This document shows positions 4,783-28,855 of a stretch of 29,537 nucleotides of DNA, piece by piece. This DNA comes from a virus. The number at the start of each line of letters is the position of its first letter. Position 1 is the stretch's first letter. The notes beneath the pieces are model-generated. The model was not told where the DNA came from. It saw nothing but the letters and a program-made list of their open reading frames with translations, and searched no databases. The translations under genes and the position numbers were made by a program. The DNA is taken from positions 1 through 29,537 of IMG/VR virus record IMGVR_UViG_3300020205_004428, one strand, 5' to 3'.

Positions 4783-7700
4783 ATGATAGGGACTGGATTT
4801 GAATCTAGGGTTAAAGTACAACAAATAGTTCAAAATCAACTTCCAGAATTTATACTGGATGAAAGCCCTAATGCGGTTGAATTTTTAAAGCAATATTATA
4901 TTTCTCAGGAATATCAGGGCGGTCCTGTAGATATTGCAGAAAATCTAGATCAATATTTAAAACTTGACAATCTTACTCCAGAAGTTATTGTAAGTAAAGT
5001 TGGCCTTACTACCAATATCGATTCCAATGTAGGAATCATTACAGTAACAAGTACCAAAGGATTTCCTCAAAAATATGGTTTAATTAAAATTGATGATGAA
5101 ATTATTACATATACTGGAATAACGACAAATACATTTACTGGTTGTATTCGTGGATTTAGTGGTGTTACTAATTATCATCAGGATTTAAATTCTGAAGAAT
5201 TAGTATTTTCTGAATCGGAGAAGGCATCACATTCTGGAAATACTTCAGTAGAAAATCTAAGTTCATTATTTTTAAAAGAATTTTATAAAAAGTTAAAATC
5301 ATCATTAACTCCTGGATTAGAGAATAATGATTTTGTTTCTGATTTGAATGTAGGAAATTTTATAAAAAATGCTAGATCTTTTTATCAATCTAAAGGAACT
5401 GATGAATCATTCAGAATTTTATTTAATGTTCTTTATGGTGTAACACCAAAAGTCGTAAATTTAGAAGATTATTTAATCAAACCATCTTCTGCAGAATTTA
5501 TAAGAAGGGAAGTTATAGTAGCAGAAAGAATATCGGGAGATCCTACAAAATTAGTCGGTCAAACAATCAAAAAATCTACTGAATCAATTACTATTACTAG
5601 TGCTTCAGTATCTGAAGTAGAAACATTTAGTAGAAAAAATAAACAATATTTTAAAATTTCACTTTTTGTTGGTTATAATGAATTTTCTGCAGTTGAAGGT
5701 AATTTTACAATTACACCAAATACTAAATGCTTAGAAAATATTGAAATTGGATCTTCAGTCATTAGTGTAGACTCTACAATCTCATTTCCAGAATCTGGAA
5801 CTCTTTTTTCTGGCAATAATATAATTTCATATACAAGTAAAAGTGTTAATCAATTCTTTGGTTGTACTGGAATTAAATATGCAATTTCCTTAAGTGATAA
5901 TATAAGATCTAATGAGATTTATTATGGATATGAAAATGGTGATATTACTAAAAAGGTTGAATTAAGATTAACTGGAGTATTATCAAAATTTAAACAAATT
6001 TCAGAATCTTTAAAAGTTAGTGAGGGAGATGAAATTTTTGTTAAAAATCTTGGAGAAATTATTAAAAATCCATCCGAAAATAAATCGTACAAGGAAATTT
6101 TTGCAAATTCTTGGATATACAATACAAGCTCTAGATATCAAATATCAAGTATAAATGGATCTGCATTTGTACTGGGCAGTAAAATTGATAGATCTAGTTT
6201 AAAAGTTGGAGATCGTGTAGAAATTATTGAGAGGGGAACAAATAATATACTGTCAGATCCTTTAAATTTACCATATATTTCATTAGTTGTTTCGGATACA
6301 CAAGTTAATTTGAATAATCTTTCTGGATTTATTCCAGATAATAATCAAGAATATGATTTAAGAAGAAAGGTTAATAAAGCAAGTAGTTCAATAGTTCCAA
6401 TTGAATTTGGAAACAATGTTACTCTTTCTGACATACAAAATGTATATAATGAAAATGATGAATATATGTATATTGCATCCAATTCATTACCATCAAATAA
6501 TAATGAATTATCAATTCCATATGCATACCAGATAACAAAGAATATTAATACTGTTAATGTTAGTGGATTAAGTGATCAAATTTCTAGTGGAAGATACTCT
6601 ACATTATTATTCAATAGTTCTGTACCGTTCATTAATGGTGACAGAGTTTATTATACTTCTCCAGAAAATTCCACTTTAGATTTGGAGACTGGAAGTTATT
6701 ATGTTGAAGTACTATCACCAGCAAATAAGATAAGACTATACGAATCAAAAGCATTTGTTGGTACAAATCAATATGTAACTTTTACTAGTGGGAATTTTAT
6801 ATCTCAAACACATACATTTACATTATATTCACAAAGATCTTCAAAAATATCTGCTCAAAAATTACTTAGAAAATATCCATTAAATACAAATATAACAAAT
6901 GGCACTAATGAAGTAACAATTCCAGGATCTATTGGAATGTTAATCAATGGTGTAGAAATTAAAAATTACAAATCTGATGATAAAATTTATTATGGACCAT
7001 TAGAATCAATTAATGTACTAAATGGGGGAAATAACTATGACGTTATTAATCCACCATTAATATCAGTATCTTCAGGAGAAGGAGTGAATGCATTAGTTCA
7101 ACCAGTAGTTAGTGGAAGTATTGAAAAAGTTTATATTGATAATCAAGAATTTGATATTAACAATATAATTTCAATTAATGTTACTGGTGGAAATGGTAAA
7201 GGAGTTACTTTAGAACCAATCATCAAAAAGAGAGTTAGGGAAGTTTATTTTGATGCAAGAATCACCAAAGGCATTGATATTGTAAACGAAACTATTCAAT
7301 TTTTGACAAATCATAATTTTACAAGCGGTGACCCAATAATTTACAATTCAAATAGCAATTTATCTCTTGGAATAGGAACTTATGGTGGATCAAATTTAGA
7401 TCAAAATAAAACATTAATAAACAATGCAACTTATTACGCAAAGGTTCTTAATAATACTGCAATCAACTTATATCCCACTCTTTCAGATTATTCTTCAGGA
7501 ATTAATACAATAGGATTCACTGGAATAAATGCCTCAGGTATTCATAAATTTAGAACTGTTTCCAATAAAAAAACATTATCTGAACTAAAAGTAATTAATG
7601 GTGGGAGTGATTATACAAATAGAAAGTTAATTGTAACTCCTACTGGAATATCTACAATTAATCATGCTGTTAATTTTAATAATCATGGTTTTAATGATGG

Positions 7701-10700
7701 AGAATTGGTAGTATATGATTATGAAACGTCAAATATAACTGGAATTTCAACTACAAATCAATATTATATTTTAAAATTTAATGATGATTCTTTTAGATTA
7801 TGTGATGCTGGTATTGGTGGAACAAATAGGACAAATTATATTAGAAAGAATTATGTAAAATTTACTTCTACTGGTTCTGGTTATCAATATTTTAATTATC
7901 CAAAAATTTCTGTTTCTGTACAATATTCTCCCGTAGGATTTAGTACTGAGGTACTGTCAATTATTGCAACTCCAATAGTTAAAGGAAGTATTATTGATAC
8001 CTACCTATATGAAGGTGGAACTGGATATGGATCAACAATATTGAATTTACATAAAAAACCATTAATAAAAATAAAAACAGGAAAGGAAGCTCAAATAACT
8101 CCAGTTATTGTTAATGGATCAATTATCTCAGTAAATATAAATTATGGTGGATATGAATATTATTCAATTCCAGATTTAATTGTTAATGATTCCAGTAAAT
8201 CTGGATCTGGATCTGAACTTAGGGCAATTGTCACTAATAATAAAATTACATCCGTAAGCATCATAAATCCAGGTATTGGATATTCTAGTTCATCAACTAT
8301 TATTAAAGTTAAACCATCAGGTTCTAATGCAGTTTTAGATTCAAGTGTTAGATCTTTGAGAGTCAATAATAACATAAAATTTGGTGATGAATTATTAATT
8401 GAATCTGATAATAATTTACAATATTCAATTTGTGGATATTATGATACTCTAAGATTATCATTAAATGATAATGGTGTGCAACATTCTCCAATAATTGGAT
8501 GGGCATACGATGGAAATCCAATATATGGTGCATATGGATATTCAAACGCTGAGGATCCTAACACACTACAAAAAGCATTGATTTCTGGATATGAATTAAA
8601 TACTTCAAATATAACTGATAGACCACTACAATTTGCTGATGGATTTTTTGTAGAAGATTACCAATATACAAATTCTGGAGATTTAGATGCAAATAATGGA
8701 AGATTTGGGAAAACTCCGGAATTTCCAAATGGTATTTATGCATATTTTTCAACGATTGAAGAAGAAACCTTAAAGTCTAAATTTCCATATTTTATTGGTG
8801 ATACTTATAGGTCAAATGTAATTAAAGAAAATTTTACACTCGATCAAACTTATGACTTCAATAGTTCAACTTTATTAAGAAATACTTTTCCATATAAAGT
8901 TTCTGAACTATATGCTGATAATGATTTTATACTTGAATCTAATGAAATTTTAAATCAAAAAACAATTATAGAATCTGTAACCGATGGATATATAAATTCA
9001 ATCGATATATTGAATTCTGGATATGATTATAAAGTAAATGATATTTTAGAATTTGATGATAATGGAACAGAAGGTGGAGGATTGATTGCAAAAGTATCAT
9101 CCATAAAAGGAAAAGATATTGTATTACTGAATACTTCTGTAGAAACATATAATAGTGCTATTTTTACCTGGAAATATGATAATACAGTAAAAGTTTCTAT
9201 ATTACCAAATCATAATCTCTCAAATAATGATTATGTTATAATTTCTGGATTTTCTACTAGTTTATCATTATTAAATGGATCCTACCAAATAGGAATTACT
9301 TCTTATTATTCAAATGTATTAAAAAATATTCCAGCATCAACTGCGGGATTGACAACTGAGATATATGTGTCACAATTCCCTTCAGAGACGATATCTATTG
9401 GTAGTAGTATTAGAATTGGGGCAGAAACATTATCAGTTCTAGAAGTCTTTAAAAATCTGAATATACTGAGAGTACAAAGAGGTTCAACTGGAGTATCCCA
9501 TACTGCAACCTCCCAAATAAATTTTATTCCAGATTCTTTTAGAATTTCCAAAAATATAGATTATTTTGAATCTAAACTTAATGATAAAGTTTATTTTAAT
9601 CCAGTAGAATCAATTGGTATTGGAACTCAAATTGGAACTACATCTTCAATAACATTTGAATTTGGCGATTCTAATACTACAAGAATTATTCCAACTCAAG
9701 GAATTTATATCCAAAATCATCCATTCAATACAAATCAACAGATTATTTTTAGAAGATCCACATCAGATTATATTTCAGTATCAACTTCACCGAGTGGTAC
9801 ACAATTTAACATACCTTCTACTGGAGATTCTCAAATTCTTTATGTAGTAAATAAAAATAAAGATGTTATTGGATTAAAAACTTCTATCAATTCTTCTGAA
9901 TTGTTTTTTGTCGATCTTAATGGCGGAAACGATGATGACAAATATTCATTTGAAAGTACATATTCACAGATAACTGCAAAAGTTCAAAGAATAAAATCTA
10001 CAGTTTCAGTATCAACTTCACATGAATTATCAAATGGTGATAATATTTTACTAAAAGTAAAACCAAATCTTTCAGTTGGAATTGGAACTTCAACATCAGT
10101 ATATGTAAAAAGAAATGCAACTAATGGAAATATATTAATCAATCCAATTGGATTCAACTCCACAGGTATTAATACATCAACAAGTACAATAACAATTAAT
10201 TCACATAATTTAAATACTGGAGATAAAATATCATATTCTGCAGATTTAATTGCATCTGGATTATCATCTGATTCATACTATGTTTGTAAGATTAATGATA
10301 ATCAAATTAAACTTTCGGAAACATATTTTGACTGTAAGAATGATCCACCCATTATAGTAAGTATTGCAAGTACTGGAGGTAGAAATCAATTTATTTCATT
10401 AATAAATCCCCAAATTAAATCAATTAAAAATAATAATTTAATATTTAATTTAAGTGACTCCTCTTTGACAGGATATAGATTTAAGATTTATTACGATCAA
10501 GAATTTAAAAATGAATTTGTTTCTACTGCAACAACTACTGGTTTCACACTTTCTGGTATAGGGACAATTGGAATTTCTTCTACAGCATCACTTAATATTA
10601 ATTATGATTCCACATTACCGACAAAATTATATTACAATTTGGAAAAAAATGGATATATAAGTACTTCCGATATTTCTGTTATTAATAATTCTCAAATTTT

Positions 10701-13700
10701 ATTTACAAATAGTGGATATGATTCGAATTTTAATTATAAAATTTTTGGAGTTGGATCTACTACATTCAGTTTTTCGTTAGATAAGATTCCAGAAAAATTA
10801 TCATATTCGCAAAATGAATGTGATACTCTAGAATATACTACAGATTCTTTATTAGTAAAAGGCCCAATTAATAAGATTAATATTGTTTCTGGTGGGACTG
10901 ATTATAAGAAATTGCCAGTTTTTAGTGGATCAAATTCTATTGATGGTAAAGATGCATACCTCATTCCAAAATCAAATACAATAGGAAATATAAGAGAAGT
11001 TAGAATTACTAATGAAGGATTTGAATATTCTTCGGATAAAACACTGCAACCATTTGCTTATATATCACCATTAATTACAATAGAAAATTCAGATACTATT
11101 GGAATTATTACAGTAACTGATGGTGGAACAAATTATATAAGTCCACCATCAATAGTAATTGTAGATAATACAACTGGGGAAAAAATTGATAGTGGAGTAT
11201 TAGAAGCAAAACTAGCAGATAATTCTATTTCTTCAGTAGATATAGTACAAAATCCAAAAGGACTACCTTCTACAACTGTAAGGTTAGTTGCAACAAATAA
11301 TACTAACGGTGTTAGTATTCAGTCTGTAGAATCATCATCTACTGGAATTTTTACATGTTATATAACAACTCCAGTATTAGGATATTCTATAGCACCATTT
11401 GATGTTGGCGATAAAGTTTTTGTTGAGGGCATAACAAAATCTGGAACTAATGGGACAGGATTTAATTCTGAAGATTATGGGTATGAATTCTTTACTATAT
11501 CTGCATATCAAGCAACTAATCCAGATAAAATCACATTTAATATTTCCAATTTAACTTCAAATACTGGATTAGCAAATGAAATTCAAGATTCATTTGCAAC
11601 TATTATAAATTATAAAAATTATCCAAATTTTGAAATAACTCAAATACCATCATATTTCTTAATTGGTGAAAGAATTATTTCAAATAATGTTGAAAGGGAT
11701 CTAATTATAACGGATAGCACTGAAACTTTTATTAAAGTATTTGGTTCTTATGAGTTATCATTAGATGAAGTTATTAAAGGTAAGGAATCTGGAAATATAG
11801 CGACTATAAAAAAAATTGAAAACAATACAGGATTATTTGAGATTAATTACTCAACTGAAAAATCTATCGGATGGGTAAATGATACTGGAAAATTAAATTA
11901 TGATAATCAAACAATTCCCGATAATGATTATTATCAAAATCTTTCATATACAGTAAAAAGTCCTATTCAGTATGAAGATCTAAAAACTGCTGTCAATAGT
12001 TTACTTCATACTAGTGGATTAAAAAACTTTGCAGACACTGGAATTACATCTACGGCAAGTTCAGAACTATCAGGAAATACTGTAGATTCACTTATTATTG
12101 ATATTATTAATGAAAAAAGAGTAGATACAGTTTATAATTTTGATCTAGTTAAAGATATTGATATATTAGAAAACTCTTCTAAAATTTTAAAATTAAAAAA
12201 TATTTCATTGACACCATATATTAAATGTGATAATAATATTGTTTTGGGAATTGATAATATAAATCGTCAATTTTCCAATTTAGAGACAGAACCTAGTGAA
12301 TTTTTAAATATTCTTAGATTAGGATCAAATGATTCATACAATAATCTAATATTCAGAATTTCTAATTTGGATAATTCTCAAATTCAATTTACAGAATTAG
12401 TAGTATTGAATAATACAATTGATACTTTCTTATTGAATAAAAGTACCATATCAAATACTGGTGAAGAATTTGGAGAATTTTCAATATTTACGGATCAATT
12501 TAATGATTCATATTTAAGGTTCAATCCAACTAATCCATATGATATTGATTATGATTTAAAATCTATCAAAACTACCTTTAATACAATTCTTCCGGGAATA
12601 GGTACACAATCTATAGGATTTGTAGATTTAACGGGATTGAATATTGGTGTACAATCAGGTATAACGACATCAATTATATCAGCACAAACCAGTAAATTAG
12701 AATCTTTATATGCAGATGTGCAAGTAATTGATGCTATAACAAATGAAATGACTTTTGTAGAGTTATATTTGGCACATGATGGCACTAATACTTATATTTC
12801 AGAATACTATGTTGACTCAGAATCAAAAACTGGCAATTATTCGGGAAATTTTATAGGGACATTCAGTTCAACAATATCTTCCGGAATATTATCATTAAAT
12901 TTTAAAAATACGAGTACACATCAAGTTAAACTTAGATCAAAAATTGTTGGATTTGGATCAACAGCAGTTGGTGTCGGTACTTATAGATTTAAGAAATCTG
13001 GACAACTTGCCGGAAATGAAAGAAGTGCAAAATATGAATCCAAATATCAATCGAATGTTTCAACTGCATCAACAGATATAATTTCATTAAATAAAAATAA
13101 TTTTAATGCAATCAAATCATTAGTTAAAGTAAGTTTCGGATCAACTATATCTTTACATAAAGTTTCATTACTTCAAGATACTAATAATATTTTTGTGGAG
13201 CAATCAGCATTTCTTTCTGTTGGAAGTACTACAGGTATTGGATCTTTTGGTGGAGAATATTCTGGAAGTGATTTTATATTGAAATTTTATAAATCACCTG
13301 AAGTATCCGGTACGATTAAAATATCATCATTTAATCAATGCATTTATACAGTAATTGATGATATCAATATTCCACCAGATTTAATTTATGGAACTTTAAC
13401 TGATTCGGTTCAAGTTAATTCTTATAATGCACTCAATGGAGATAGAATTAATAAAACTGCATTTAATATGACTACTAATGATGGATATCCAATTTTTGCA
13501 CAAACTTTTGATCCATCAGATGCATTGATATTAAATCTATCTACTGGTTTATTTACAATAGACAATCATTTCTTTAGTAGTGGTGAAAAATTAATATATA
13601 CCCCAAAATCAACTTTTATTGGAGTTTCTGCAAGTCCTCTTATGGTTGGGGCATCACCACTTCCATCCGAAGTTTATGCCATTAGAGAATCTGCAAATAC

Positions 13701-16410: not shown

Positions 16411-16424
16411 TCCCAATAATATAT

Positions 16425-16432: not shown

Positions 16433-16452
16433 TAGAAAAAAAGACGGTTAAT

Positions 16453-18000
16453 ATGTCAGCAATTGTAACAGATCAATTTAGAATTTTGAATGCTAATAAT
16501 TTCGTTGACTCTGTAGTAAATGTAACAAATTCATATTATGTATTTGTTGGTCTTCCAAACCCAGATCCAGAATCTATTGGATTTGGTAGAGGTGATAATT
16601 GGGATACAGATATTCCAGATCCAATTGATAATATTCAATATTTAAATCATTATCGCGACACCTCAATTTTTGGTAAAAAAATTACTAGTTCAAATATTAG
16701 AAGAATTATAAGAAGAATTGATTGGACTGCAAATGTAAAATATGAGATGTATAGGCATGATTATAGTATTTTAAATCAATCACCAATATCAAACTCAAGT
16801 AGACTTTATAATGCTAATTATTATGTAATGAATAGTGATTATAAGGTTTACATTTGTATTGATAATGGTTCTTCTGGAGTAAATCTCAAAGGTAATGGTT
16901 CTAAAGATGAACCGACATTTACAGATTTGGAACCATCTGCGGCAGGAGTAAGTGGAGATGGATACTTATGGAAATATTTGTTTACTGTTTCTCCAAGTGA
17001 TATTATAAAATTTGATTCTACAGAATATATCGCCGTTCCAAATGATTGGAGTTCAACATCAGATTCTCAAATTGTTTCAGTTAGAGAAAATGGAGACTCA
17101 ACTTTAAATAATAATCAAATTAAAAAAGTTTATATTGAAAATGGTGGGCAAAATTATAGTTCTGGTGAAGTCAATATTCTTGGTGATGGTAGTGGTGGAA
17201 AGGTTTTAATTGAAGTTGATAGTAATGGATCAATAATTTCTACTACAGTAACTTCTGGTGGTAGTGGATATACTTATGGAATAGTTGATTTGGGGTCTTT
17301 ACAACCTCCAGGAAGTATACCATATCCAGCAAAACTTATATCAATCATTCCCCCATCAAAAGGGCATGGTTACGATCTTTATACAGAATTAGGTACTGAT
17401 AAAATACTAATATACGCAAGATTTGATGATTCTACAAAAGACTTTCCAATCGATACCAAATTTTCTCAAATTGGTATTTTGAGAAATCCAACTTCATATA
17501 GTTCTACTTCAATTTTTACTCAGAATCAATATTCTTCACTTTATTCAATTAAACTTACATCAAACTTTAGTGGATCTCCAGTTGTTGGCGATGAAATTTC
17601 ACAAACAGTAACCGGAGGAACTGCAAAAGGATATGTTGCATCATATGACACTACTACCAAGGTTTTAAAATATTTTAGAGACAGATCTTTATATTTTGGT
17701 GCAACTGGTAATAGTGATGAAACTGATTATATTACAGTTTCTACTGAGGGTAAAGTATTAGAATTTCAGTCCACAACAAATACAATTAGTCCATATTCCG
17801 CATCTATTGATACAACTTTTAATAATGATAAGGTTACAATTGGAAGTAAAATTATAGATTTGGGAGCATCTTTTTCGGGAGGTCTTGCAAATCCCGAGAT
17901 AAATAAAGAATCGGGAGACGTTATCTACATTGATAATAGACCTTTAGTTTCTAGAAGCTCCAGACAAAAAGAAGACATTAAAATTATCCTGGAATTTTAA
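16453..18000 (+). CDS. gp8: Baseplate wedge protein gp8, enlarged (515 aa)
   Basis: gp8 sits on the outer part of the T4 wedge and contacts gp7, gp9 and gp10. The N-terminal half carries the gp8 pattern: YYVFVGLPNPDP, IIRRIDWTANVKYEMYRHD near 95, a strand NYYVMNSDYKVYICIDNGSS near 130, then DGYLWKYLFTVSPSDIIKFD and a TEYIAVP segment, which parallels the T4 gp8 DGYKWKF-type motif. It is about 180 residues longer than T4 gp8 (334 aa). The extra part includes two GG-x-x-Y repeats (ENGGQNYSSG near 230 and TSGGSGYTYG near 267) and a GDE...TGGTAKGYVASY module, both shared with the giant proteins and gp14. It starts behind its own late box and ends 5 nt before the next gene, so the two are co-transcribed. 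Confidence 0.85.
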   Translation: MSAIVTDQFRILNANNFVDSVVNVTNSYYVFVGLPNPDPESIGFGRGDNWDTDIPDPIDNIQYLNHYRDTSIFGKKITSSNIRRIIRRIDWTANVKYEMYRHDYSILNQSPISNSSRLYNANYYVMNSDYKVYICIDNGSSGVNLKGNGSKDEPTFTDLEPSAAGVSGDGYLWKYLFTVSPSDIIKFDSTEYIAVPNDWSSTSDSQIVSVRENGDSTLNNNQIKKVYIENGGQNYSSGEVNILGDGSGGKVLIEVDSNGSIISTTVTSGGSGYTYGIVDLGSLQPPGSIPYPAKLISIIPPSKGHGYDLYTELGTDKILIYARFDDSTKDFPIDTKFSQIGILRNPTSYSSTSIFTQNQYSSLYSIKLTSNFSGSPVVGDEISQTVTGGTAKGYVASYDTTTKVLKYFRDRSLYFGATGNSDETDYITVSTEGKVLEFQSTTNTISPYSASIDTTFNNDKVTIGSKIIDLGASFSGGLANPEINKESGDVIYIDNRPLVSRSSRQKEDIKIILEF

Positions 18001-18005
18001 AAAAA

Positions 18006-21000
18006 ATGGCACAAAAAACAGATTTAAATATCAGCCCATATTATGACGATTTTGATGCTGAAAAAAACTTTTATAAAGTACTGTTTAATCCAGGGCGTCC
18101 AATTCAAGCAAGGGAATTAACGACTTTACAATCGATTTTACAAAATCAAATAGAATCGTTTGGTAGTCATATGTTCAAAGAGGGATCAATGGTGATCCCA
18201 GGAAATATTGCATATGATGGACAATTTTATGCAGTAAAACTTAATCCAACAAATTTTGGAATTGATATTTCACTGTATATTAATAATTTTATAGGTAAAA
18301 AAATAGTCGGGCAAATATCAGGAACAACGGCAATTATCCAATATGTTGCTCTTCCAGATAATATTAATGTCGAAGATTTAACAATATATGTAAAATACTT
18401 AGATTCTGATAATAATTTCATATTCAAACAATTTGAAGATGGGGAATCTTTAGCAGCAGAAGAAAATATAACTTACGGAAATACTACAATTAATGCTGAC
18501 ACACCTTTTGCATCTTTAATTTCATTAAATGCAACTTCAATAGGATCTGCAGCTTCTATTGGGAATGGTGTATATTTTATTAGAGGTTATTTTGTAAACG
18601 TATTGAAGCAAACTATAATATTAGATAATTATACAGATACGCCATCATACAGAGTTGGATTAAAGATTGATGAGTTATTAATTAATCCAAAAGACGATCA
18701 ATCTTTATATGATAATGCTAAGGGATTTACAAACTATGCAGCACCAGGTGCAGATAGATTAAAAATTAACTTATCATTAACTAAAAAATTAATAAGTGAT
18801 ACTAATGATACTGATTTTGTCGAACTATTAAGAGTTCAAGATGGAAAAATTAAAAAAATTGAATCAAAAACCAATTATAATCTAATCAGAGATTATATGG
18901 CGGATAGAACATATGATGAATCTGGTGATTATGCGGTAACACCATTCACTGTATCATTACATAATTCATTGAATGATAGACTAGGAAGTAATGGATTATT
19001 TTTTGATAATGAAACTACAGATGAAAATAATACACCATCAAATGATTTGATGGGAATTAAAGTATCTCCAGGTAAAGCATATGTGAGGGGATATGATGTA
19101 GATAAAATTTCAACAACAATTATTGATGTTGAAAAACCAAGAGATACTGAAACAGTTTCTGCAATGAATATTCCCTTTGAAATGGGAAATATTTTAAGAG
19201 TTAATGCTGTATCTGGAACACCAAAACAAAAGGAACAAGTAGAATTATATAATCAATTAAATGGTGATGGTGATAAAATTGGATATGCTAGAGTATACAG
19301 TTTTAAATTAACTGATGCTGCATATAGTGGAAATGTATCAAATTGGGATTTATGCTTATATGATATACAAACTTATACATCATTAGTTTTAAATAAAACT
19401 ATAACAACTGCAGAACTTCCAAAATCATCTTTTGTAAAAGGTAAGAGTAGTGGTGCGAGTGGTTATGCAACTGCAGATGGTGCAAATTCCACAATTATAA
19501 AATTAAGTCAAACTTCTGGAAAATTTTCTCAAGGGGAACAATTATTAATAAATGGAGTGGATTCTTCCACATCTATTAAATCAATCACATCATATGGAAC
19601 TCAAAATATAAAATCAGTATTTCAAGATTCAACTTTAGTAGGTTTAGCAACATATTTTAATGCAAATGCTTTTCTGGAGAGATTTAATTTTCAAAATAAT
19701 GTAAGTAAAGTAACTATTACCTCCGGTGGTAGCGTAACTTCTGCAGGAAATGTATTTAGTGGTGTAAGAGAAAATACCATTATTAGATATCAAAAGCAAG
19801 GTTCTTCATTAGAAACATTCAATAGAATAACATCGGTTTCTGCTGACGGATTATCAATGACTGTTGCAGGAATTACGTCAGTTTCTGGAGTTTTTGACGG
19901 AACTTTACCTTCAGGTACAATTGAACCAAATATTCAAATTGGAGCACCAATTGTAAGAAATGAATCTACTGGATACTTATATTCAGAAATTCCAGATTCA
20001 AATATATCTTCAGTAAATCTTTCAGATTCGTTATTAACAATTTCTACACAAATTGTAGGAAAACTAATATCCGGAAATACATTAACTCTCGATTCTTCTG
20101 ATATCAGTACTATTGGATTCTCTAGTGCATTCTTTGCTTCATTTGATGAAGAGAGATATTCTGTTCATTATTCTTCGGGCGGAATTGGTACAGTAACATC
20201 AGATTCTTTTAATCTTAATTCTAATACAGTAACAATTTCAGGGTTAAGTAATGACAGTGCAGCTACCATAAACGTAACATTAATTAAAAATGGAGTCCAA
20301 AGTAAGAAAAAATTATACAATAGAAGTCAAATATTAAATATTGTTTATTCCAAAAATCAACAATCTGGAACAGGTATTAATACATCAATTAATGATGGAT
20401 TAACTTACAATCAATTCTATGGATTGAGAGTTCAAGATGAGGAAATAAGTTTAAATTATCCTGATGTATGTAAAGTTTTAGCAATCTATGAATCATATGA
20501 TTATAACTCCCCATCATTAGATAAAGTACAATTTACATCTAGTGCAGATGTTACAACTAATGCAATAATTGGCGAAAATATAATTGGAAATAGTAGCAAA
20601 GCAATTGCAAGAGTTGTTTCAAAACCATCTACACATGTCTTGGGAATTGTTTATCTTAATACTGAAAGATTTTTTGAAGGAGAAACTGTAAAATTTGAAG
20701 AATCTAATATAACTGTTGACATTCAATCAATTACCGTAGGTAATTACAAAGATGTTACGTACACATATCAATTAGATAAAGGACAGAAAGATCAATATTA
20801 TGATTATTCTAGACTTATTAGAAATAAAAATATACCCGAGCCTTCCAAACAATTATTGGTAGTATTTGATTATTATTCAGTACCTACAAATGATAATGGA
20901 GACGTATTTACTGTTTTGAGTTATGATCAAGAAAGATATTTAAATGATATTCCAATCATTGGAACTAGGAGTGTAAGAGCTTCTGATACACTAGATTTTA

Positions 21001-24000
21001 GACCCTATGTATCTGTTTTTTCTTATACAGATAGATCTCCATTTGATTTTGATTCAAGATCTTTTAATTCAGATCCAAAAGTTATTTTATCATCGAATGA
21101 AAGTGCATTAATTGGTTATGATTATTATCTACCAAGAATAGATAAATTGTATCTTGATAAATTTGGCACTTTCATTTTAGAAAAGGGTACATCATCAAAA
21201 AATCCTAGAGTTCCAAATAAAAAAGGTGACGTAATGGATATTGCAACCATTACATTGCCAGCATACTTGTACCATCCCTCGGATGCTGTTATCACACCAA
21301 TTGATAATAGAAGATATACTATGAGAGATATTGGAATAATTCAAGAAAGAGTTTCTAATTTAGAAAGAGTTACTTCATTATCATTACTTGAAGTTAATAC
21401 ACAAACACTTCAAATTCAAGATTCTAGTGGAAGAAATAGATTCAAAACTGGATTTTTTGTTGATGACTTTAAAAATTATGCATCAATCAATACAAGATTG
21501 TCTTCAATACAAATTAATAACGAATCTAATGAATTAATTCCGATTATTAGTAGAAATTCTCTAAAATCACAACTTTCATCAGCGACTGCACTCATTGATG
21601 AGGAATTAGATTTATCAGTTAATTATGAATTACTAGATCCGAACGTACAAAAAACTGGAAATTCAGTAACTTTAAAATATGATTCTGTAGGTTGGATCGA
21701 ACAACCTTTTGCAACAAGAGTTGAGAATGTTAATCCATTCAATGTTATCGTATATACTGGTGATATTAAGTTAGATCCAGACAGAGATTATTGGATTAGA
21801 ACTATACAACTTCCAGATAGGCATGTATCAAACAACATATCGATGCCGTCGATAAATCTCACAAATAACGTTTCCATTAGTAATGTTACTACTAGCAATA
21901 GTTCTACCAATACCACTAAGGAAAGAGTAATTTATGGTATGGGAAATTGGCAAAATACTACTACTACTCCCCCAGTAGCTTCATTGTCAAGTAGAACATC
22001 ATCTTCAACTTCATCTAGTACTGCAAGAAATGGTACTATACTTGATTATGATACTACAATTCAAAACATAAAAGTAGCCTCTGCAGAAGAAAAATTTATA
22101 AGATCTAGAAATATTGAGTTTTCAATATCAAATATCAAACCTTCTACACAATTCTATCTATTTTTCGATTCGAATAGTGCAGTTGATTTTGTTCCAAAAT
22201 TAGTAGAGATTTCAAATGATACTACTTTAGCAAACTATGGTTCTTCCGGATCATTTGTTGTTGGTGAGGAGGTTGTTGGCACCAGTAATGGGCAAAATTT
22301 AATCAGATTTAGAGTTGCAAGTGCAAATCACAAGTATGGTGCATTTAATGCTCCATCTTCGACATACATGGTAAATCCATATATTAAGGGAGAATCATTA
22401 CCATCAACATACAGCACATCTTCAAAAGTTTTAAATATTGATACTTATTCACTATCACAAGAGGCTCAAGGAAAATATTCTGGTTATTTATTGAAAGGTA
22501 TGCGATTAGTTGGGCAAACTAGTGGAGCAGTTGCATATGTTAAAGATCTTAGATTGATTTCTGATAATTATGGAGATCTGATTGGAGCAAGTTTCTTAAG
22601 AGATCCAAATACAACTCCACCACCTTCAGTTAGAGTTGAAACTGGAACTAAGACTTTCAAATTATCTTCCAGTTCAACAAATTCTTTGGGAAGACTTGGA
22701 AGTACTGCAATTTCTTACGCAGAAACAAATTATAGTGCCGATGGCATGGTTGAACAGTGGGAAAATTTAGTAACAACTACTATCAGATCGACAGATATAA
22801 ACACAACTACAAATACAACTACAAATACGACTAATATAAATTTAAATAATCACACAACTACAACAGTAACGAGATACGTAGATCCTCTTGCACAATCATT
22901 TGTTGTTGGGGGGAATGTTGAAGCACCTTCCCCAACAAATACAAATGATGATGTAAATGGTGCGTTCTTAACTGCAGTTGATTTGTATTTTGGTTCAAAA
23001 GATGAAGGAAATGCCCCAGTAAAAGTAGAAATAAGAACTGTCGAATTGGGCACTCCAACAAGATTTAGAATTGGAAATCCAGTTACATTGAGGCCAGATC
23101 AAGTTAATGTATCTGATGATGCAGAGACTGCGACTAAGGTTACTTTTGACGAACCAATTTATCTTGCACCTGGAAGAGAATATGCAGTGGTAATTATTTC
23201 AGAAACAAGTGATCAATATGAATTATGGTGCGCAACAATGGGTGAGAAAACTGTAAATACTAAGTCATTACCAGATGCCGACAGTGTAAAATACAGTAAG
23301 CAATTCTCCATGGGAAGCTTGTTTAAATCTCAGAATGGATCTATATGGACTGCAAACCAGTATCAGGATCTTAAATTCAAACTTTACAAAGCAGAATTTA
23401 CATCACCTACAGGAACTGCATTTTTCTACAATCCAACACTAGATGAGAGTAATGGATATGTTGCAAAATTAATTAATAATCCATTAACAACTTTACCAAA
23501 AACCGCAACTCTTGGTATTACTACAACAACTACTCTCACATCAATCTTAACAAAAGGTAGAAAAATTGCAGGTTCAGTACCTGATAATTATGGATATATT
23601 GTTGGTTCTGGAAGTTCTGTTTCAACAGTAGGTCTTACAACTGGTGGAAGCAATTATGTTACTGATACCAATGTAGATACTTTTAATATTATTGGAAACG
23701 GTTCTGGTCTCAAATTAAACATTACTGCAAGCGGTGGTATAATTACTGGAACTCCACTAATTGTAAATAGGGGTAATGGTTATGCTATTGGTGATGTTGT
23801 TGGTATTGTAACATCCTCAGTATTATCTAACACTGGTACTGGAGCAAATATTACTATCAGCGCAATTACCGGATTAGATACACTATATCTCTCCGGAGTT
23901 CAAGGAAAAACATTTAATGTTGGTGCTGGTCTAAGTTATTACAGTGATGCCGGTCAAATTGTATCGCTTGCCAGTACTACAATTAGAAGTTTTGTAGAAC

Positions 24001-25349
24001 CTGGAAATGAAAATTCTGGAAATTGTATTAAAGTTGATCATTTTGATCATGGAATGTACTCAAATACGAATAAATTAGTTATCAGTGGTGCAGAATCAAG
24101 TATTCCAGCAACAACACTTTCAGTTCAATTATTAAGTACTGATGTTTCTATTGTTAGTATTGCCGATACTTCAAACTTCACGACTTTTGAGGGAGTTTTA
24201 GTTAGTGGATCTAATCCAGGATATGTAAAAATTGAAAATGAAATTATTTCATATACATCGGTTGGAACTGGAACATTAAATGGTGTTGTTAGAGGAATTG
24301 ATTTAACTAAAACGCTAGATTATCAAATTAATAGTATAGTATATAAGTATGAAATGAATGGAGTTTCCTTAAGAAGAATTAATACAACTCACGATATTAG
24401 TGATTTGGAAATAGGGATAGATGATTATTATATTGAAATTGATAGATCAACAAACGGTACTAATAGATCAGTAGATGCATCAGGATTGCCAGAATTATCA
24501 TTTACAAATGAATCAACTCTTGGTGGATCTAATGTATACGCAACATCAAATATATCTTATAATGCGTTAGTACCAGTTTATGATGTTATTACTCCAGGAT
24601 CTACATCTGTCACTGCAAAAATTAGAACTACTACTGGTACTAGTGTTGGTGGAAACGAAACTTCATTCCTTGATAATGGATTTGAACCAGTTCAATTGAA
24701 TACATTGAATGTTTTGGAATCGGTAAGATTAGTGTGTTCCAAAGAAAATGAAACTGCTTATTTAAGTAATCTGCCCAGAAATAAATCATTTACTACTGGA
24801 ATAACTTTGAATAGTTCTGATAAATATCTGTCTCCAGTAATATATTTGGATAATTCATCTACAGAATTTAGAAATAACCGTATAAATAAACCAATTTCAA
24901 ATTATGTAACTGATTCTAGAGTTAATTCTATAACAAATGATCCTCATGTAGCTTCATATGTTTCTAGACTTGTATCACTAACACAACCTGCAGCATCTTT
25001 GAAAGTTATTTTATCAGCATATAGACATTCTTCTTCAGATTTTAGAGTTCTTTATAGTTTAATTAGAGCCGATTCTAGTGAGATTCCTCAAGCATTTGAA
25101 TTGTTCCCAGGATATGATAATTTAAAATATACCGATACGAGTGAATATTCTGTTGTTGATCCATCAAAAAATAGTGGATTGCCAGATATATTTGTTAGAC
25201 CAAGTTTAGATAATGAATTTATAGAATATCAATTTACTGCAGATAATCTAGATTTATTTACTGGATATGCAATAAAAATTGTAATGTCCGGAACAAATCA
25301 AGCATATCCAGTGAGAATAAAAGAACTTAGAGCAATTGCAATAAGATGA
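18006..25349 (+). CDS. Giant DUF4815-type tail/baseplate protein (2447 aa)
   Basis: Large virion protein in the place of T4 gp9-gp12, likely a peripheral baseplate or fibre-anchoring component. Residues 1-80 (YYDDFDAEKNFYKVLFNPGR, PIQARELTTLQSILQNQIE) are a clear DUF4815 start; GKAYVRGYDVDK near 358 and YYLPRIDKLYLDKFG near 1040 are further DUF4815-like signs, separated by inserted modules. Then come a possible coiled coil (IGIIQERVSNLERVTSLSLL, about 1107), NVNPFNVIVYTGDI near 1241, Ser/Thr- and Thr/Asn-rich linkers (about 1290-1350, 1596-1621), RSRNIEFSISNIKPSTQFYL near 1366, a DPLAQSFVVGG domain near 1626-1745, GG-x-x-Y repeats near 1875 and 1920, an E-I-I-S-Y...VRG module near 2080, and a C-terminal domain (VSRLVSLTQPAASLKVILSA). 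No signal peptide is evident. It starts 5 nt after gp8 and its stop overlaps the next start (ATGA). Receptor binding cannot be shown. Confidence 0.85.
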   Translation: MAQKTDLNISPYYDDFDAEKNFYKVLFNPGRPIQARELTTLQSILQNQIESFGSHMFKEGSMVIPGNIAYDGQFYAVKLNPTNFGIDISLYINNFIGKKIVGQISGTTAIIQYVALPDNINVEDLTIYVKYLDSDNNFIFKQFEDGESLAAEENITYGNTTINADTPFASLISLNATSIGSAASIGNGVYFIRGYFVNVLKQTIILDNYTDTPSYRVGLKIDELLINPKDDQSLYDNAKGFTNYAAPGADRLKINLSLTKKLISDTNDTDFVELLRVQDGKIKKIESKTNYNLIRDYMADRTYDESGDYAVTPFTVSLHNSLNDRLGSNGLFFDNETTDENNTPSNDLMGIKVSPGKAYVRGYDVDKISTTIIDVEKPRDTETVSAMNIPFEMGNILRVNAVSGTPKQKEQVELYNQLNGDGDKIGYARVYSFKLTDAAYSGNVSNWDLCLYDIQTYTSLVLNKTITTAELPKSSFVKGKSSGASGYATADGANSTIIKLSQTSGKFSQGEQLLINGVDSSTSIKSITSYGTQNIKSVFQDSTLVGLATYFNANAFLERFNFQNNVSKVTITSGGSVTSAGNVFSGVRENTIIRYQKQGSSLETFNRITSVSADGLSMTVAGITSVSGVFDGTLPSGTIEPNIQIGAPIVRNESTGYLYSEIPDSNISSVNLSDSLLTISTQIVGKLISGNTLTLDSSDISTIGFSSAFFASFDEERYSVHYSSGGIGTVTSDSFNLNSNTVTISGLSNDSAATINVTLIKNGVQSKKKLYNRSQILNIVYSKNQQSGTGINTSINDGLTYNQFYGLRVQDEEISLNYPDVCKVLAIYESYDYNSPSLDKVQFTSSADVTTNAIIGENIIGNSSKAIARVVSKPSTHVLGIVYLNTERFFEGETVKFEESNITVDIQSITVGNYKDVTYTYQLDKGQKDQYYDYSRLIRNKNIPEPSKQLLVVFDYYSVPTNDNGDVFTVLSYDQERYLNDIPIIGTRSVRASDTLDFRPYVSVFSYTDRSPFDFDSRSFNSDPKVILSSNESALIGYDYYLPRIDKLYLDKFGTFILEKGTSSKNPRVPNKKGDVMDIATITLPAYLYHPSDAVITPIDNRRYTMRDIGIIQERVSNLERVTSLSLLEVNTQTLQIQDSSGRNRFKTGFFVDDFKNYASINTRLSSIQINNESNELIPIISRNSLKSQLSSATALIDEELDLSVNYELLDPNVQKTGNSVTLKYDSVGWIEQPFATRVENVNPFNVIVYTGDIKLDPDRDYWIRTIQLPDRHVSNNISMPSINLTNNVSISNVTTSNSSTNTTKERVIYGMGNWQNTTTTPPVASLSSRTSSSTSSSTARNGTILDYDTTIQNIKVASAEEKFIRSRNIEFSISNIKPSTQFYLFFDSNSAVDFVPKLVEISNDTTLANYGSSGSFVVGEEVVGTSNGQNLIRFRVASANHKYGAFNAPSSTYMVNPYIKGESLPSTYSTSSKVLNIDTYSLSQEAQGKYSGYLLKGMRLVGQTSGAVAYVKDLRLISDNYGDLIGASFLRDPNTTPPPSVRVETGTKTFKLSSSSTNSLGRLGSTAISYAETNYSADGMVEQWENLVTTTIRSTDINTTTNTTTNTTNINLNNHTTTTVTRYVDPLAQSFVVGGNVEAPSPTNTNDDVNGAFLTAVDLYFGSKDEGNAPVKVEIRTVELGTPTRFRIGNPVTLRPDQVNVSDDAETATKVTFDEPIYLAPGREYAVVIISETSDQYELWCATMGEKTVNTKSLPDADSVKYSKQFSMGSLFKSQNGSIWTANQYQDLKFKLYKAEFTSPTGTAFFYNPTLDESNGYVAKLINNPLTTLPKTATLGITTTTTLTSILTKGRKIAGSVPDNYGYIVGSGSSVSTVGLTTGGSNYVTDTNVDTFNIIGNGSGLKLNITASGGIITGTPLIVNRGNGYAIGDVVGIVTSSVLSNTGTGANITISAITGLDTLYLSGVQGKTFNVGAGLSYYSDAGQIVSLASTTIRSFVEPGNENSGNCIKVDHFDHGMYSNTNKLVISGAESSIPATTLSVQLLSTDVSIVSIADTSNFTTFEGVLVSGSNPGYVKIENEIISYTSVGTGTLNGVVRGIDLTKTLDYQINSIVYKYEMNGVSLRRINTTHDISDLEIGIDDYYIEIDRSTNGTNRSVDASGLPELSFTNESTLGGSNVYATSNISYNALVPVYDVITPGSTSVTAKIRTTTGTSVGGNETSFLDNGFEPVQLNTLNVLESVRLVCSKENETAYLSNLPRNKSFTTGITLNSSDKYLSPVIYLDNSSTEFRNNRINKPISNYVTDSRVNSITNDPHVASYVSRLVSLTQPAASLKVILSAYRHSSSDFRVLYSLIRADSSEIPQAFELFPGYDNLKYTDTSEYSVVDPSKNSGLPDIFVRPSLDNEFIEYQFTADNLDLFTGYAIKIVMSGTNQAYPVRIKELRAIAIR
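22803..22826 (+). repeat. Two perfect 12-nt tandem units encoding a Thr/Asn linker
   Basis: ACAACTACAAAT occurs twice in tandem, with a degenerate third unit following. It codes for the T-T-N-T run of a low-complexity linker in the 2447-aa protein, just before the DPLAQSF domain. Slippage in such a tract could vary linker length in steps of four residues without breaking the frame. Confidence 0.7.
24881..24888 (+). promoter_or_regulatory. Late-box match inside the DUF4815 gene
   Basis: An exact TATAAATA lies in coding sequence 458 nt upstream of the gene at 25346. It could give the small downstream genes extra late transcription, but exact matches occur by chance in sequence this AT-rich. 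Confidence 0.2.
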
Positions 25350-25712: not shown

Positions 25713-25713
25713 A

Positions 25714-25721
25714 TATAAATA
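25714..25721 (+). promoter_or_regulatory. T4 late promoter box (exact TATAAATA) for the neck unit
   Basis: An exact TATAAATA starts two bases after the preceding stop codon and ends 23 nt before the ATG at 25745. AAGGAA at 25727-25732 is the probable ribosome site. It should drive the 116-aa and 157-aa proteins, gp13, gp14 and gp15, whose genes are overlapped or closely spaced. Confidence 0.75.
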
Positions 25722-25744
25722 GACTTAAGGAATATATTAAAAAA

Positions 25745-26095
25745 ATGGCAGTTTATGTTTCAAATATTGTCATTGAACAAGGATTTGATTATTCTAGTAT
25801 CTTCAGTTTAGAAGATGCTAGGACAAATTCATATTTGAATATTGTTGGATATGCAGTAACTGCGCAATTGAGAAAAAGTCCTTCAAGTTCAACTGCAGTC
25901 TCTTTTGCCTCAACAATTGTAGATGCTGCAGTCGGTGCAATCCAAATTTCCCTAACAAGTGCGCAAACATTAGGTTTAAAGCCTGGAAGATATGTTTATG
26001 ATGTAATGTTAGAAAACGGTGGTTTAGGATCTGGTGGACAAAAATATAAAGCAATTGAAGGAATGGTTCTAGTAAGAGCAGGGGTAACACACTAA
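25745..26095 (+). CDS. Small beta-rich virion-type protein (116 aa)
   Basis: The sequence has the layout of a phage tail-associated beta-sandwich: I-V-I-E-Q-G-x-D-[YF] followed by F-S-L-E-D, then G-Y-x-V-x-x-Q-[LI]-R-K-S, a G-A-I-x-[IV]-x-L-T strand, L-x-P-G-R-Y-V-Y-D-V-x-L, and a closing E-G-x-V-L-V-R-x-G-V-T. Proteins with this order are common in tailed phages, often beside fibre or neck genes, and some form the N-terminal part of larger baseplate proteins. It opens the neck unit behind a late box and its stop overlaps the start of the 157-aa gene (TAATG). A minor structural role at the baseplate or neck is likely; the exact place is unknown. Confidence 0.75.
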   Translation: MAVYVSNIVIEQGFDYSSIFSLEDARTNSYLNIVGYAVTAQLRKSPSSSTAVSFASTIVDAAVGAIQISLTSAQTLGLKPGRYVYDVMLENGGLGSGGQKYKAIEGMVLVRAGVTH

Positions 26096-26568
26096 TGCCA
26101 AACATATCAGATAGAATTGGTAATCAAAACGTCATTAGAGTTCTTTCCAATATAGGAGCTTCGGCAACAAGATTAGTAGATTTAAGTGATGTTGATGTAT
26201 CTTCATTGGCAGATGGATTTGTACTTGAATACAAGGCGCAGACTTCAAAATTTATTACAACAGATTCATTTAGATTCCTCAAAAATGTAAATGTAACCGG
26301 AATATTAACCACCTATAAATTAGATGTTATTGGTATAACAACATTTCGTGGTGATTTATATGTTGGTGCTGATTTATATGTGAGAGAATATCTTCGTTAT
26401 ACTCAACATTATGATGGTCCTAATGGAATTGCATATTTTGATAATACTGGAAAATTGATTGGTGCTGCCAGTACTGAATCGTATGTGCAGAATACCAATT
26501 ATGTTCTAACCACAACAGAACAAGGTATTCCAGTTTGGTCATCAGTTATTGAAGGAGGTGCATACTAA
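26095..26568 (+). CDS. Short fibre-like virion protein (157 aa)
   Basis: Start overlaps the previous stop (TAATG). Residues about 25-55 (RLVDLSDVDVSSLADGFVLE, then YKAQTSKFI) match a short motif common in phage fibres and adhesins, where L-S-D-V-D...L-x-D-G-x-V-L-x-Y precedes a shaft. The middle alternates strands (VNVTGILTTYKLDVIGITTF, then RGDLYVGADLYV) in a pattern like a triple-beta-helix stem, and the end (QGIPVWSSVIEGGAY) reads like a collar-type terminus. It lies where T4 keeps gp12 and fibritin (wac), so it may be a short whisker or fibre. It ends with the perfect Shine-Dalgarno for gp13 inside its last codons. Function is inferred. Confidence 0.75.
   Translation: MPNISDRIGNQNVIRVLSNIGASATRLVDLSDVDVSSLADGFVLEYKAQTSKFITTDSFRFLKNVNVTGILTTYKLDVIGITTFRGDLYVGADLYVREYLRYTQHYDGPNGIAYFDNTGKLIGAASTESYVQNTNYVLTTTEQGIPVWSSVIEGGAY
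26552..26559 (+). promoter_or_regulatory. Perfect Shine-Dalgarno for gp13
   Basis: AAGGAGGT, a full match to the 16S rRNA 3' end, lies 8 nt before the gp13 ATG (26568) inside the upstream gene. It stands out because gp25, gp8 and the DUF4815 gene show almost no such pairing. It also settles the gp13 start. Confidence 0.8.
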
Positions 26569-27395
26569 TGGCTAAACCTGCAAGTAGACAAGAACTCGTA
26601 AATTACTGCCTAAGACGCCTAGGAGCGCCTGTACTGGAGATTAACGTTGATGATGATCAAATAGATGATCTAGTTGATGATGCTCTTCAACTGTTCTATG
26701 AGAGGCATTTTGATGGTGTAGAAAGAATGTATTTGAAGTACAAATTGACTCAGGATGATATTAATAGGGGAAAATCTGTAGGTACAACCGGAGTTGGAAT
26801 TGTAACAACTACCGGCACTTCACAGGGAAAAACTTTTAATTTTTATGAGACTTCGAATTTTATTCAGGTTCCAGATTCAGTAATTGGAATTGAAAAAGTA
26901 TTTAAATTTGATACTAGCGACATTTCTGGTGGAATGTTTAGTATTAAATATCAATTATTTTTAAATGATTTATATTATTTTAACTCAGTAGAACTTTTAC
27001 AGTTCGCAATGGTAAAAACATACTTAGAAGATATTGATTTCTTATTAAAAACTGATAAACAAATAAGATTCAATAAAAGACAAAATAGAATGTATATGGA
27101 TATAGATTGGGGGGCACAAAAACTTGATACATTCTTTATTATTGATTGTTATAGAATACTTGATCCTAATGATTTTACTAAAGTTTATAATGATAGTTTT
27201 ATTAAAAGATATCTTACCGCACTAATTAAGAGACAGTGGGGACAAAATCTGATCAAATTTAGAGGAGTTAAATTGCCAGGTGGTGTTGAATTGAATGGTA
27301 GAGAAATATATGATGATGCTGAAAGAGAAATTCAATCAATATTAGATAGAATGTCGATGGATTATGAACTTCCACCTTATGACTTTATTGGATAG
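26568..27395 (+). CDS. gp13: Neck protein gp13 (275 aa)
   Basis: gp13 with gp14 forms the neck that seals the filled head and receives the tail. Length is near that of T4 gp13 (309 aa). The N-terminus (SRQELVNYCLRRLGAPVLEI, then NVDDDQIDDLVDDALQLFYE) and the following RHFDGVERMYLKYKLT are typical of the family, as are the C-terminal LTALIKRQWGQNLIKFRGVK and LPGGVELNGREIYDDAEREI blocks. A Gly/Thr-rich loop (about residues 69-85, VGTTGVGIVTTTGTSQGK) interrupts the conserved part and is probably surface exposed. The start overlaps the previous stop and has a perfect Shine-Dalgarno. gp14 starts 2 nt after its stop. Confidence 0.92.
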   Translation: MAKPASRQELVNYCLRRLGAPVLEINVDDDQIDDLVDDALQLFYERHFDGVERMYLKYKLTQDDINRGKSVGTTGVGIVTTTGTSQGKTFNFYETSNFIQVPDSVIGIEKVFKFDTSDISGGMFSIKYQLFLNDLYYFNSVELLQFAMVKTYLEDIDFLLKTDKQIRFNKRQNRMYMDIDWGAQKLDTFFIIDCYRILDPNDFTKVYNDSFIKRYLTALIKRQWGQNLIKFRGVKLPGGVELNGREIYDDAEREIQSILDRMSMDYELPPYDFIG

Positions 27396-27397
27396 AT

Positions 27398-28855
27398 ATG
27401 GCATTAAATCCATTTTTTCTTCAAGGATCTCCGGCAGAGCAGAGTTTAGTACAAGATTTGGTCAATGAACATTTGAGAATGTTTGGAATTGATGTATATT
27501 ATATTCCAAGAAAATTATTAAAAACTGATAATATTATTAGAGAAGTACAATCTTCAAAATTTGATGATAATTTTATTATTGAGGCATATCTGAATAACCA
27601 TGAGGGATATTCTCCTGGTAGTGATATCATGTCTAAATTTGGAATTACTCTAAAAAATGAACTATCATTAATAATTTCTAGGGAAAGATTTGAAGAATTT
27701 ATAAGTCCATTTTTATCAGAAATTATAGCAGGAGAACCTAGTTACTCCCCAGGAGAAAAATTAGTATTTGCTACTAGACCAAAAGAAGGAGATTTAATAT
27801 TTTTTCCATTGGGAGAAAGACTTTTTGAATTAAAACATGTCGAATTTGAAAATCCATTCTACCAATTAGGAAAAAATTATGTTTATGAACTAAAGTGTGA
27901 ACTATTCGAATATGAAGATGAAGAAATTGATACTGGTATTGCAGAAATAGAATCTACATTATCCGATACTGGTTATATAACTGATTTAAAACTAGTTGCA
28001 TTTGGTGGATCTGCTCAATGTGAAGCAATTGTGAGTCCATATGGTGGAGTTAGTGAAATTATATTAAACAATGATGGATATGGATATACCAGAACTCCGA
28101 CTGTAACCATCGATCCTCCACCAGAATTTACATTAGATCGCAGTTTATTCTTGGGTGCAACAAGTTTAACTACAGATATTGCCAGAGCAACTGCTGTAGC
28201 AATAACAACTTCTGTTGGTGGAGTTAAATCCATAAGTAAAATTTTAATCACAAATACTGGATATGGATATATCGATCCACCAAAAGTTAGAATAACGGGT
28301 GGTGGTGGAACAGGAGCATCTGCTATTTGTGGAATTACTACTAATTTAATAACACAAATTCATATTGTAGACAAAGGTGATCGATATTATGAACCACCAA
28401 CTATAAGTATATCTGGGCCCGTAGGAGGTGGAACAACAGCAACTGCAATTGCAAAGATTTCTTCAGGAAGACTTTCACAAGTTTTACTTGTAAATGCTGG
28501 ATCTGGATATACATCTTTACCAACAATCACAGTATCTCCACCACCAATTGTTGGATTTGGTACTTACATAGTGTCCGAAGAAGTTACTGGAACTTTATCA
28601 GGTACTTCCGCAATAGTGAAGTATTGGGAAAATCCTGGACAAGATATTGATAAAACTTTAAGAGTTTACCTAAATAATGGAACATTTAATGTGGGTGAAA
28701 ATATTGTAGGTTCCGCATCTTCTGCAATATACACATTAAAGACGTATGATCTAGATACAACTACTGCTGATGCATATTCTCAAAATGATGAGATAGAGCA
28801 AGAAGCAGATTTGATAATAGATTTTACAGAATCAAATCCATTTGGTACTTATTAA
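27398..28855 (+). CDS. gp14: Neck protein gp14, with repeat-bearing extension (485 aa)
   Basis: Neck component partnering gp13. The first 200 or so residues are the family core: MALNPFFLQGSPAEQSLVQD, RMFGIDVYYIPRKLL, a NNHEGYSPGSDIMSKFGI stretch and a FPLGERLFELKHVEFENPFY strand, ending with YELKCELFEYEDEEIDTGI. T4 gp14 has 256 residues, so about 230 are extra. The extension has four copies of [IV]-x-x-x-x-G-x-x-Y-x-x-P-x-[IV]-x-[IV] near residues 220, 280, 320 and 360, with G/A-rich connectors (GGGGTGASA, GGGTTATAIA), then a VSEEVTGTLSGTSAIVKYWE module near 390 repeated in form at GTFNVGENIVGSASSAIYTL. The end (EADLIIDFTESNPFGTY) may be a return to the core. The ORF is intact; stop overlaps the gp15 start (TAATG). 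Confidence 0.88.
   Translation: MALNPFFLQGSPAEQSLVQDLVNEHLRMFGIDVYYIPRKLLKTDNIIREVQSSKFDDNFIIEAYLNNHEGYSPGSDIMSKFGITLKNELSLIISRERFEEFISPFLSEIIAGEPSYSPGEKLVFATRPKEGDLIFFPLGERLFELKHVEFENPFYQLGKNYVYELKCELFEYEDEEIDTGIAEIESTLSDTGYITDLKLVAFGGSAQCEAIVSPYGGVSEIILNNDGYGYTRTPTVTIDPPPEFTLDRSLFLGATSLTTDIARATAVAITTSVGGVKSISKILITNTGYGYIDPPKVRITGGGGTGASAICGITTNLITQIHIVDKGDRYYEPPTISISGPVGGGTTATAIAKISSGRLSQVLLVNAGSGYTSLPTITVSPPPIVGFGTYIVSEEVTGTLSGTSAIVKYWENPGQDIDKTLRVYLNNGTFNVGENIVGSASSAIYTLKTYDLDTTTADAYSQNDEIEQEADLIIDFTESNPFGTY
28050..28550 (+). repeat. Protein-level repeats in gp14 (four GYGY-P units)
   Basis: Four units with the core G-[YDS]-x-Y-x-x-x-P-x-[IV]-x-[IV] (DGYGYTRTPTVTI, TGYGYIDPPKVRI, KGDRYYEPPTISI, AGSGYTSLPTITV), each preceded by a short I-x-x-[IV]-x-[IL]-x strand and separated by Gly/Ala/Thr-rich connectors. 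The DNA copies are too diverged to be a recent tandem duplication. Confidence 0.8.

Follow-up and report, generated by a model that had tools for sequence, protein, structure and literature searches.

Phage virions are already known to carry optional beta domains, most of which have Ig-like folds and occur as insertions in, or additions to, conserved structural proteins such as the sheaths and the lambda tail tube. In T4, domain I of the sheath protein gp18 forms a six-stranded barrel within domain II, into which it is inserted (PMC3004832). One proposal for such extra domains of sheaths is that they help in adhesion or stability (PMC9230969).

A repeat unit of the same optional, inserted character is found in the window, i.e., the whole stretch of 29,537 nucleotides that was analyzed. 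This 29.5-kb virus record is of T4-like cyanophage origin, with S-SRM01 and S-SKS1 as its nearest named relatives. The gene order is gp25, gp6, a 3875-aa gp7-like gene, gp8, a gene for a 2447-aa DUF4815/VrlC-type protein, two small genes, gp13, gp14, and gp15. Four of the products carry units:

4783..16410, plus strand: gp7-like giant baseplate wedge protein, 3875 aa, about nine units (phrog_2885 'baseplate wedge subunit', E=0; between gp6 and gp8)
16453..18000, plus strand: gp8 baseplate wedge protein, 515 aa, two units (PF09215, E=3e-12; phrog_438)
18006..25349, plus strand: 2447-aa DUF4815/VrlC-type virion protein, two units (PF16075, E=8e-59; phrog_358, E=0)
27398..28855, plus strand: gp14 neck protein, 485 aa, four units (PF11649, E=5e-29; T4 gp14 structure matched at 24-173)

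The window gp8 is a member of the T4 gp8 family (PF09215 at 46.6 bits against a gathering cut-off of 25), and the same model matches 47 of 47 gp8 relatives. The N-terminal core of gp14 is homologous to T4 gp14, both by the PF11649 match and by structure (9lu4, Z 8.4 over 24..173). Positions in the virion are taken from T4 homology, and the identity of the gp7-like protein comes from PHROG matches and synteny. An earlier note on this DNA placed the unit-bearing proteins at opposite ends of the tail, which holds as far as T4 homology assigns gp14 to the neck and gp8 and the gp7-like protein to the wedge.

The unit had been described as [GN]-G-x-x-Y-x-x-x-P-x-[IV]-x-[IV]. In its literal form this motif is too strict, with two matches only, both in the 3875-aa protein; the units are nonetheless real. 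A loosened motif has five matches in the 3875-aa protein and four in gp14, where shuffles give 0.09 and 0.02. A unit HMM was seeded with the gp14 units alone, from 29 phages, and then iterated through relatives (80 gp14-anchored and 80 gp8-anchored viral contigs). Its consensus is IKSVTITNGGSGYTSTPTVTISGPGVGSGATATATITIS, 39 aa. The noise level was set by 1111 shuffled or reversed decoys with local composition kept, the highest of which scored 9.3 bits, and real units score up to 39.8 bits. Seeded in this way, the HMM scores above the decoys in each of the four proteins and recovers units at every coordinate that had been listed, a few of them near noise, plus weak extras:

7006..7113, plus strand: unit, gp7-like 742-777 (21.5 bits; hhalign segment 738-820 versus gp14 array, 64%)
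7579..7656, plus strand: unit, gp7-like 933-958 (13.7 bits; hhalign 39% versus gp14, 92% versus the gp7 1110 segment)
8128..8331, plus strand: two adjacent units, gp7-like 1116-1153 (8128-8241) and 1155-1183 (8245-8331) (26.8 and 20.7 bits; hhalign 97.9% versus gp14 array)
8992..9099, plus strand: unit of the 'G-x-x-Y-x-V-x-D' variant, gp7-like 1404-1439 (15.2 bits; hhalign 54% versus gp14, 94% versus 2447, 86% versus T4 gp18 domain I)
10867..11184, plus strand: three units, gp7-like 2029-2048 (10867-10926), 2070-2085 (10990-11037), and 2109-2134 (11107-11184) (4.9 and 6.5 bits, both weak, and 17.9 bits; hhalign segment 96.6% versus gp14)
14809..14928, plus strand: unit, gp7-like 3343-3382 (10.9 bits; hhalign segment 94.7% versus gp14)
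17119..17217, plus strand: unit, gp8 223-255 (37.4 bits; hhalign 88% versus gp14, 97% versus 2447 and gp7 1110)
17239..17289, plus strand: second, shortened unit, gp8 263-279 (7.8 bits alone; G-x-x-Y kept across relatives)
23619..23870, plus strand: two units, 2447-aa protein 1872-1909 (23619-23732) and 1919-1955 (23760-23870) (14.0 and 6.6 bits; hhalign 89% versus gp14, 97% versus gp8; model pLDDT about 97)
28049..28564, plus strand: four-unit array, gp14 218-389, at 28049-28210, 28232-28345, 28349-28462, and 28478-28564 (26.6-39.8 bits each; model pLDDT about 86-93 over most of the array)

Units below about 9 bits (10867, 10990, 17239, and 23760) are not significant alone; they are backed by position and aligned relatives and, for 23760, also by a structure model. 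The same HMM finds no unit above noise in gp6, gp13, gp15, or the small proteins. What stands of the proposed motif is its G-x-x-Y core, the G and Y of which are the only invariant residues in a 30-unit alignment. The full pattern does not hold, and its Pro is absent from the gp8 and 2447-aa units. An HMM made from just the four window units was overfit and found gp14 and one doubtful gp7 place only.

Profile-profile comparison with family alignments is a stronger test than single-unit HMM scores. With hhalign, the gp14 array matches gp8 at 88%, the 2447-aa protein at 89%, and six gp7 segments at 39-98%, while eleven control segments compared with the gp14 array give 0.0-2.2% (three of them have one or no relatives in the alignment). 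The gp8, 2447, and strongest gp7 segments match one another at 96-97%, and PHROG profiles of gp7, gp8, gp14, and many other virion protein families cross-match on the unit. These profiles and their controls show homology across the four proteins and, with two structure models, support the proposal that a single homologous module recurs in four scaffolds, those of the gp7-like, gp8, 2447-aa, and gp14 proteins.

The same evidence bears on the idea that Gly/Thr/Ala-rich beta-strand sequence arose independently in each protein and shares a superficial motif only. The connectors are compositionally biased and the literal motif rarely matches, as such convergence would predict, but composition-preserving decoys peak at 9.3 bits versus up to 39.8, control segments of the same proteins reach 2.2% or less by hhalign, G-x-x-Y is conserved with 39-aa spacing in unrelated proteins, and the same strand order is modeled with high pLDDT in two of them. 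Different folds with a low-complexity likeness, the outcome that the earlier note had named as evidence against a shared module, are not what the profiles and the gp14 and 2447 models indicate. Convergence is largely refuted, and we give it very little credence.

Structure models cover gp14 and a segment of the 2447-aa protein, i.e., two of the four unit-bearing proteins. Both have the same predicted unit, in the order strand, G-x-x-Y turn, short strand, Gly-rich loop, and strand. In consecutive units the last strand of one lies end to end with the first of the next, probably as a hairpin, as read from the DSSP string. The unit would be a three-stranded beta module of 36-45 residues, placed in pairs or arrays in loops of the host proteins with the core undisturbed. 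The gp14 array would lie within the C-terminal beta-barrel, with further units in gp8, the gp7-like giant, and the 2447-aa protein.

The gp14 model (193..452) matches an aIF2gamma/EF-Tu barrel (VIA) over 67 aligned residues only, at Z 6.4 and 2.7 A, where a structural-alignment Z below 8 may reflect a common arrangement. Because only 67 residues within 193-452 align, the match suggests that the barrel is formed by the flanks and that the array is not part of it. A barrel of this EF-Tu/aIF2gamma type is also matched by the 2447 segment, as is T4 gp7 765-853 (Z 6.2), again with Z in the common-arrangement range. In these models, the units of gp14 and the 2447-aa protein appear to sit within a barrel. 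The barrel part of gp14 is itself a second shared module:

28568..28780, plus strand: beta-barrel part of gp14 (391-461), adjoining the array (VIA barrel match; HMM hits in gp14, 2447, and gp7)
28568-28780, 18291-18446, 19434-19538, 20565-20684, 22497-22571, and 11767-11829: all second-module sites (HMM)

This second module, a GE-x-V-x-G-x-x-SGA-x-A-x-V barrel, occurs in gp14 and the gp7-like protein and four times in the 2447-aa protein; in relatives it is also found in gp8. Searches of the PDB by sequence with a unit profile and a cellular array returned nothing credible (top matches antibody chains, E 0.2). Foldseek of the whole gp14 model against the PDB gave only T4 gp14 below 0.001, and for the 2447 segment none, where a missing listed fold is no evidence for a new fold. 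Foldseek matches in the viral library, most of them to long proteins of several domains and with low TM-scores, served as leads only.

The number of units in cyanophage gp14 is 0, 2, 3, or 4, and T4 gp14 has none. The gp14 proteins of S-CAM1 and S-RIM44 have no units; those of S-RIM2/12/14/32 and ACG-2014d have two at one barrel loop; and those of the window, S-SKS1, P-SSM2, S-SM2, Sf-CH8, and S-SCSM1 have three or four at another. Compared with S-RIM44, the ACG-2014d protein has a single contiguous 80-aa insert after the GE-x-V-x-G segment, and in all six of the proteins with three or four units the array stops before that segment. From these alignments, the gp14 arrays appear to occupy two different loops of one barrel. 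Near the end of the gp7-like protein, several relatives (L088, L093, L105, and others) carry a two-unit cassette between shared flanks; in the window, L084, L087, and L113, these flanks are joined by a short linker and the cassette is absent. Because occupied and empty sites are found in gp14 (at two sites) and in gp7, module insertion is supported as a process, and the comparisons show both the insertion sites and the gain and loss of units.

The earlier note had suggested module shuffling, and insertion is the part of that suggestion that is borne out. If units were cassettes exchanged now between virion genes through recombination of similar repeats, empty and occupied sites in gp14 and gp7 would be expected, and the gp14 units, the only ones clearly alike, are indeed closer to each other (37-43% identity) than to most units of other genes. 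However, among 455 non-redundant units the nearest neighbor is nearly always from the same gene, and from the same position where this can be mapped; the few cross-gene nearest pairs are 59-67% identical at best. Identity between positions is also independent of gene, at 29.0% within genes and 28.1% between genes (p = 0.21). The mutual likeness of the gp14 units fits tandem duplication. Current shuffling among the four genes is not supported by these comparisons, and ongoing exchange seems highly improbable. Shuffling is old or rare, since units otherwise keep their position between relatives. Insertion, tandem duplication (in gp14), and array loss would then have recurred in evolution, with units that are now fixed by position in this lineage.

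T4 gp18 domain I (PF22639, PDB 3fo8 98-188) resembles the units in having six strands, the number that two units would provide, and in being inserted in another virion-protein domain, although its place is the sheath and the window units are inserted in neck and wedge proteins. Visual inspection of the T4 sequence and structural alignment of the 2447 model each point to two G-x-x-Y in it, but the second one of T4 is not kept in its relatives. The T4 domain (3fo8 99..187) aligns with the two-unit part of the 2447 model (78..159) over 70 residues at 2.8 A and 23% identity (VIA, Z 5.3, below 8 and so possibly a common arrangement); the same part aligns with a Klebsiella phage sheath at Z 3.2. Of the T4 proteins, gp18 scores highest with one gp7 unit profile, at 14.6 bits (top of 1900 decoys, 11.4). 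With T4-like sheath relatives included, hhalign gives domain I 86% for that gp7 unit and 31% for 2447, over short stretches of 18 and 15 columns, and the remaining gp18 segments stay under 1%. These are two of nine unit profiles, and most have no hhalign match to domain I; directly against T4 proteins, the gp14, gp8, and most gp7 unit profiles are at decoy level by HMM. No unit reaches the PF22639 gathering cut-off of 27 bits (best unit 19.1 bits, E=0.0013), and this model matches five of 59 relatives of the 2447 segment (best E=0.016). A Nostoc sheath protein carries the unit at 266-485. Domain I is probably a distant relative of the unit, by a link that is modest and unproven.

Ig-like domains are found in similar places. 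In a unit-bearing Pseudomonas locus (L201), two units lie inside a lambda-type tail tube protein, comparable to the lambda Ig-like domain. Unlike the single sandwich of an Ig-like domain, the units are 39-aa repeats in arrays. Ig-like Pfam families (Big_2, I-set, fn3, and others) have no match at E<=1 in the window proteins and none for an ideal 100-aa consensus; Fn3_arc is touched by one of 30 units (E=0.013, below cut-off). The autotransporter repeat models (PATR PF12951 and TIGR02601) do not match the window proteins, and in one cellular array (L246) the best PATR match (1275-1306) is apart from the units (995-1066). No Pfam or NCBIfam model exists for the unit. Several PHROG profiles (460, 438, 2885, 701, 708, 5342, and others) contain it and cross-match through it, but these are whole-protein families, none of which describes the unit itself, and no description of the repeat was found in the literature (mostly open-access papers). 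It is a separate, unnamed module, distinct from the known Ig-like virion decorations.

An idealized two-unit consensus finds arrays in 80 of 80 bacterial and archaeal loci among the matches listed, with 39 aa as the commonest spacing. Pfam classifies proteins of ten of these loci, among them a Nostoc tail sheath, two tail tubes (Pseudomonas and Arthrobacter), two multicopper oxidases, a C25 peptidase, and an autotransporter repeat protein; in these ten, the units are found as inserts or beyond the limits of the named domains. The cellular 39-aa repeats (multicopper oxidases, C25 peptidase, autotransporter, and beta-helix) have the same consensus and spacing and match the same HMM, though their hosts are cellular. 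In the phage collection, tblastn with the window's own units finds 189 records, and with the idealized consensus nothing. The unit is present in phage neck, wedge, fiber, sheath, and tube proteins as well as in cellular proteins. P-HM1 (L166:34325-41599) has a second gp7-annotated protein with eleven unit hits above 6 bits, which indicates that units are not confined to the window's four genes. The chances seem evenly balanced that this is an unrecognized, very widespread superfamily of inserted repeats that entered nearly every tailed-phage virion class and cellular proteins, with T4 gp18 domain I as a degenerate two-unit member. If so, one decoration module would unite domains now treated as unrelated. 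The unit occurs in giant virion proteins of abundant marine cyanophages, and with a unit profile many entries named 'virion structural protein' could be annotated in part.

By analogy with Ig-like domains of other phages, the arrays may face outward as accessory decoration, giving weak adhesion to the host surface or bracing neighboring subunits. The units are most likely exposed accessory domains that act like phage Ig-like domains, a reading favored because of their optional presence, the two alternative loops, and the analogy with gp18 domain I and the extra domains of tail tubes; a surface role common to the units is plausible by the same analogy. They could instead be assembly cement, forming lattice or inter-subunit contacts in the neck and baseplate and retained because these stabilize the virion, not because they touch the host. 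This would suit the strict conservation of unit positions between relatives and the fact that the sheath, gp8, and gp14 each form rings or helices of many copies, and a stabilizing effect of extra domains has been proposed for sheaths (PMC9230969). However, a fixed contact is hard to square with gp14 proteins that have no units (S-CAM1 and S-RIM44) while other cyanophages have arrays in two loops, and the extra domains of T4 gp18 are described as nonessential for sheath formation (PMC9230969). We regard the cement role as unlikely. One homologous inserted module, repeatedly gained and lost, now fixed by position, and serving as an accessory outward decoration, is in our judgment a likely account as a whole. 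Among natural gp14 proteins, the empty form and the forms with units at site A or site B offer ready-made comparisons for what such decorations do.

Other features were observed in the giant proteins. The 2447-type protein of S-SKS1 (NC_020851, L164:38976-45482) is an open frame without a CDS in the record, and the gp7 region of the same phage is annotated in pieces. A YHYH domain (PF14240, E=1e-26) lies at 8470-8769 of the window (gp7-like 1230-1329), shortly after the paired units at 1116 and 1155. The 2447-aa protein at 24201-24404 (104.5 bits) and the gp7-like N terminus at 5071-5181 (31.0 bits) have a third module in common (K-I-x-[ND]-E-I-I-x-Y ... RG).
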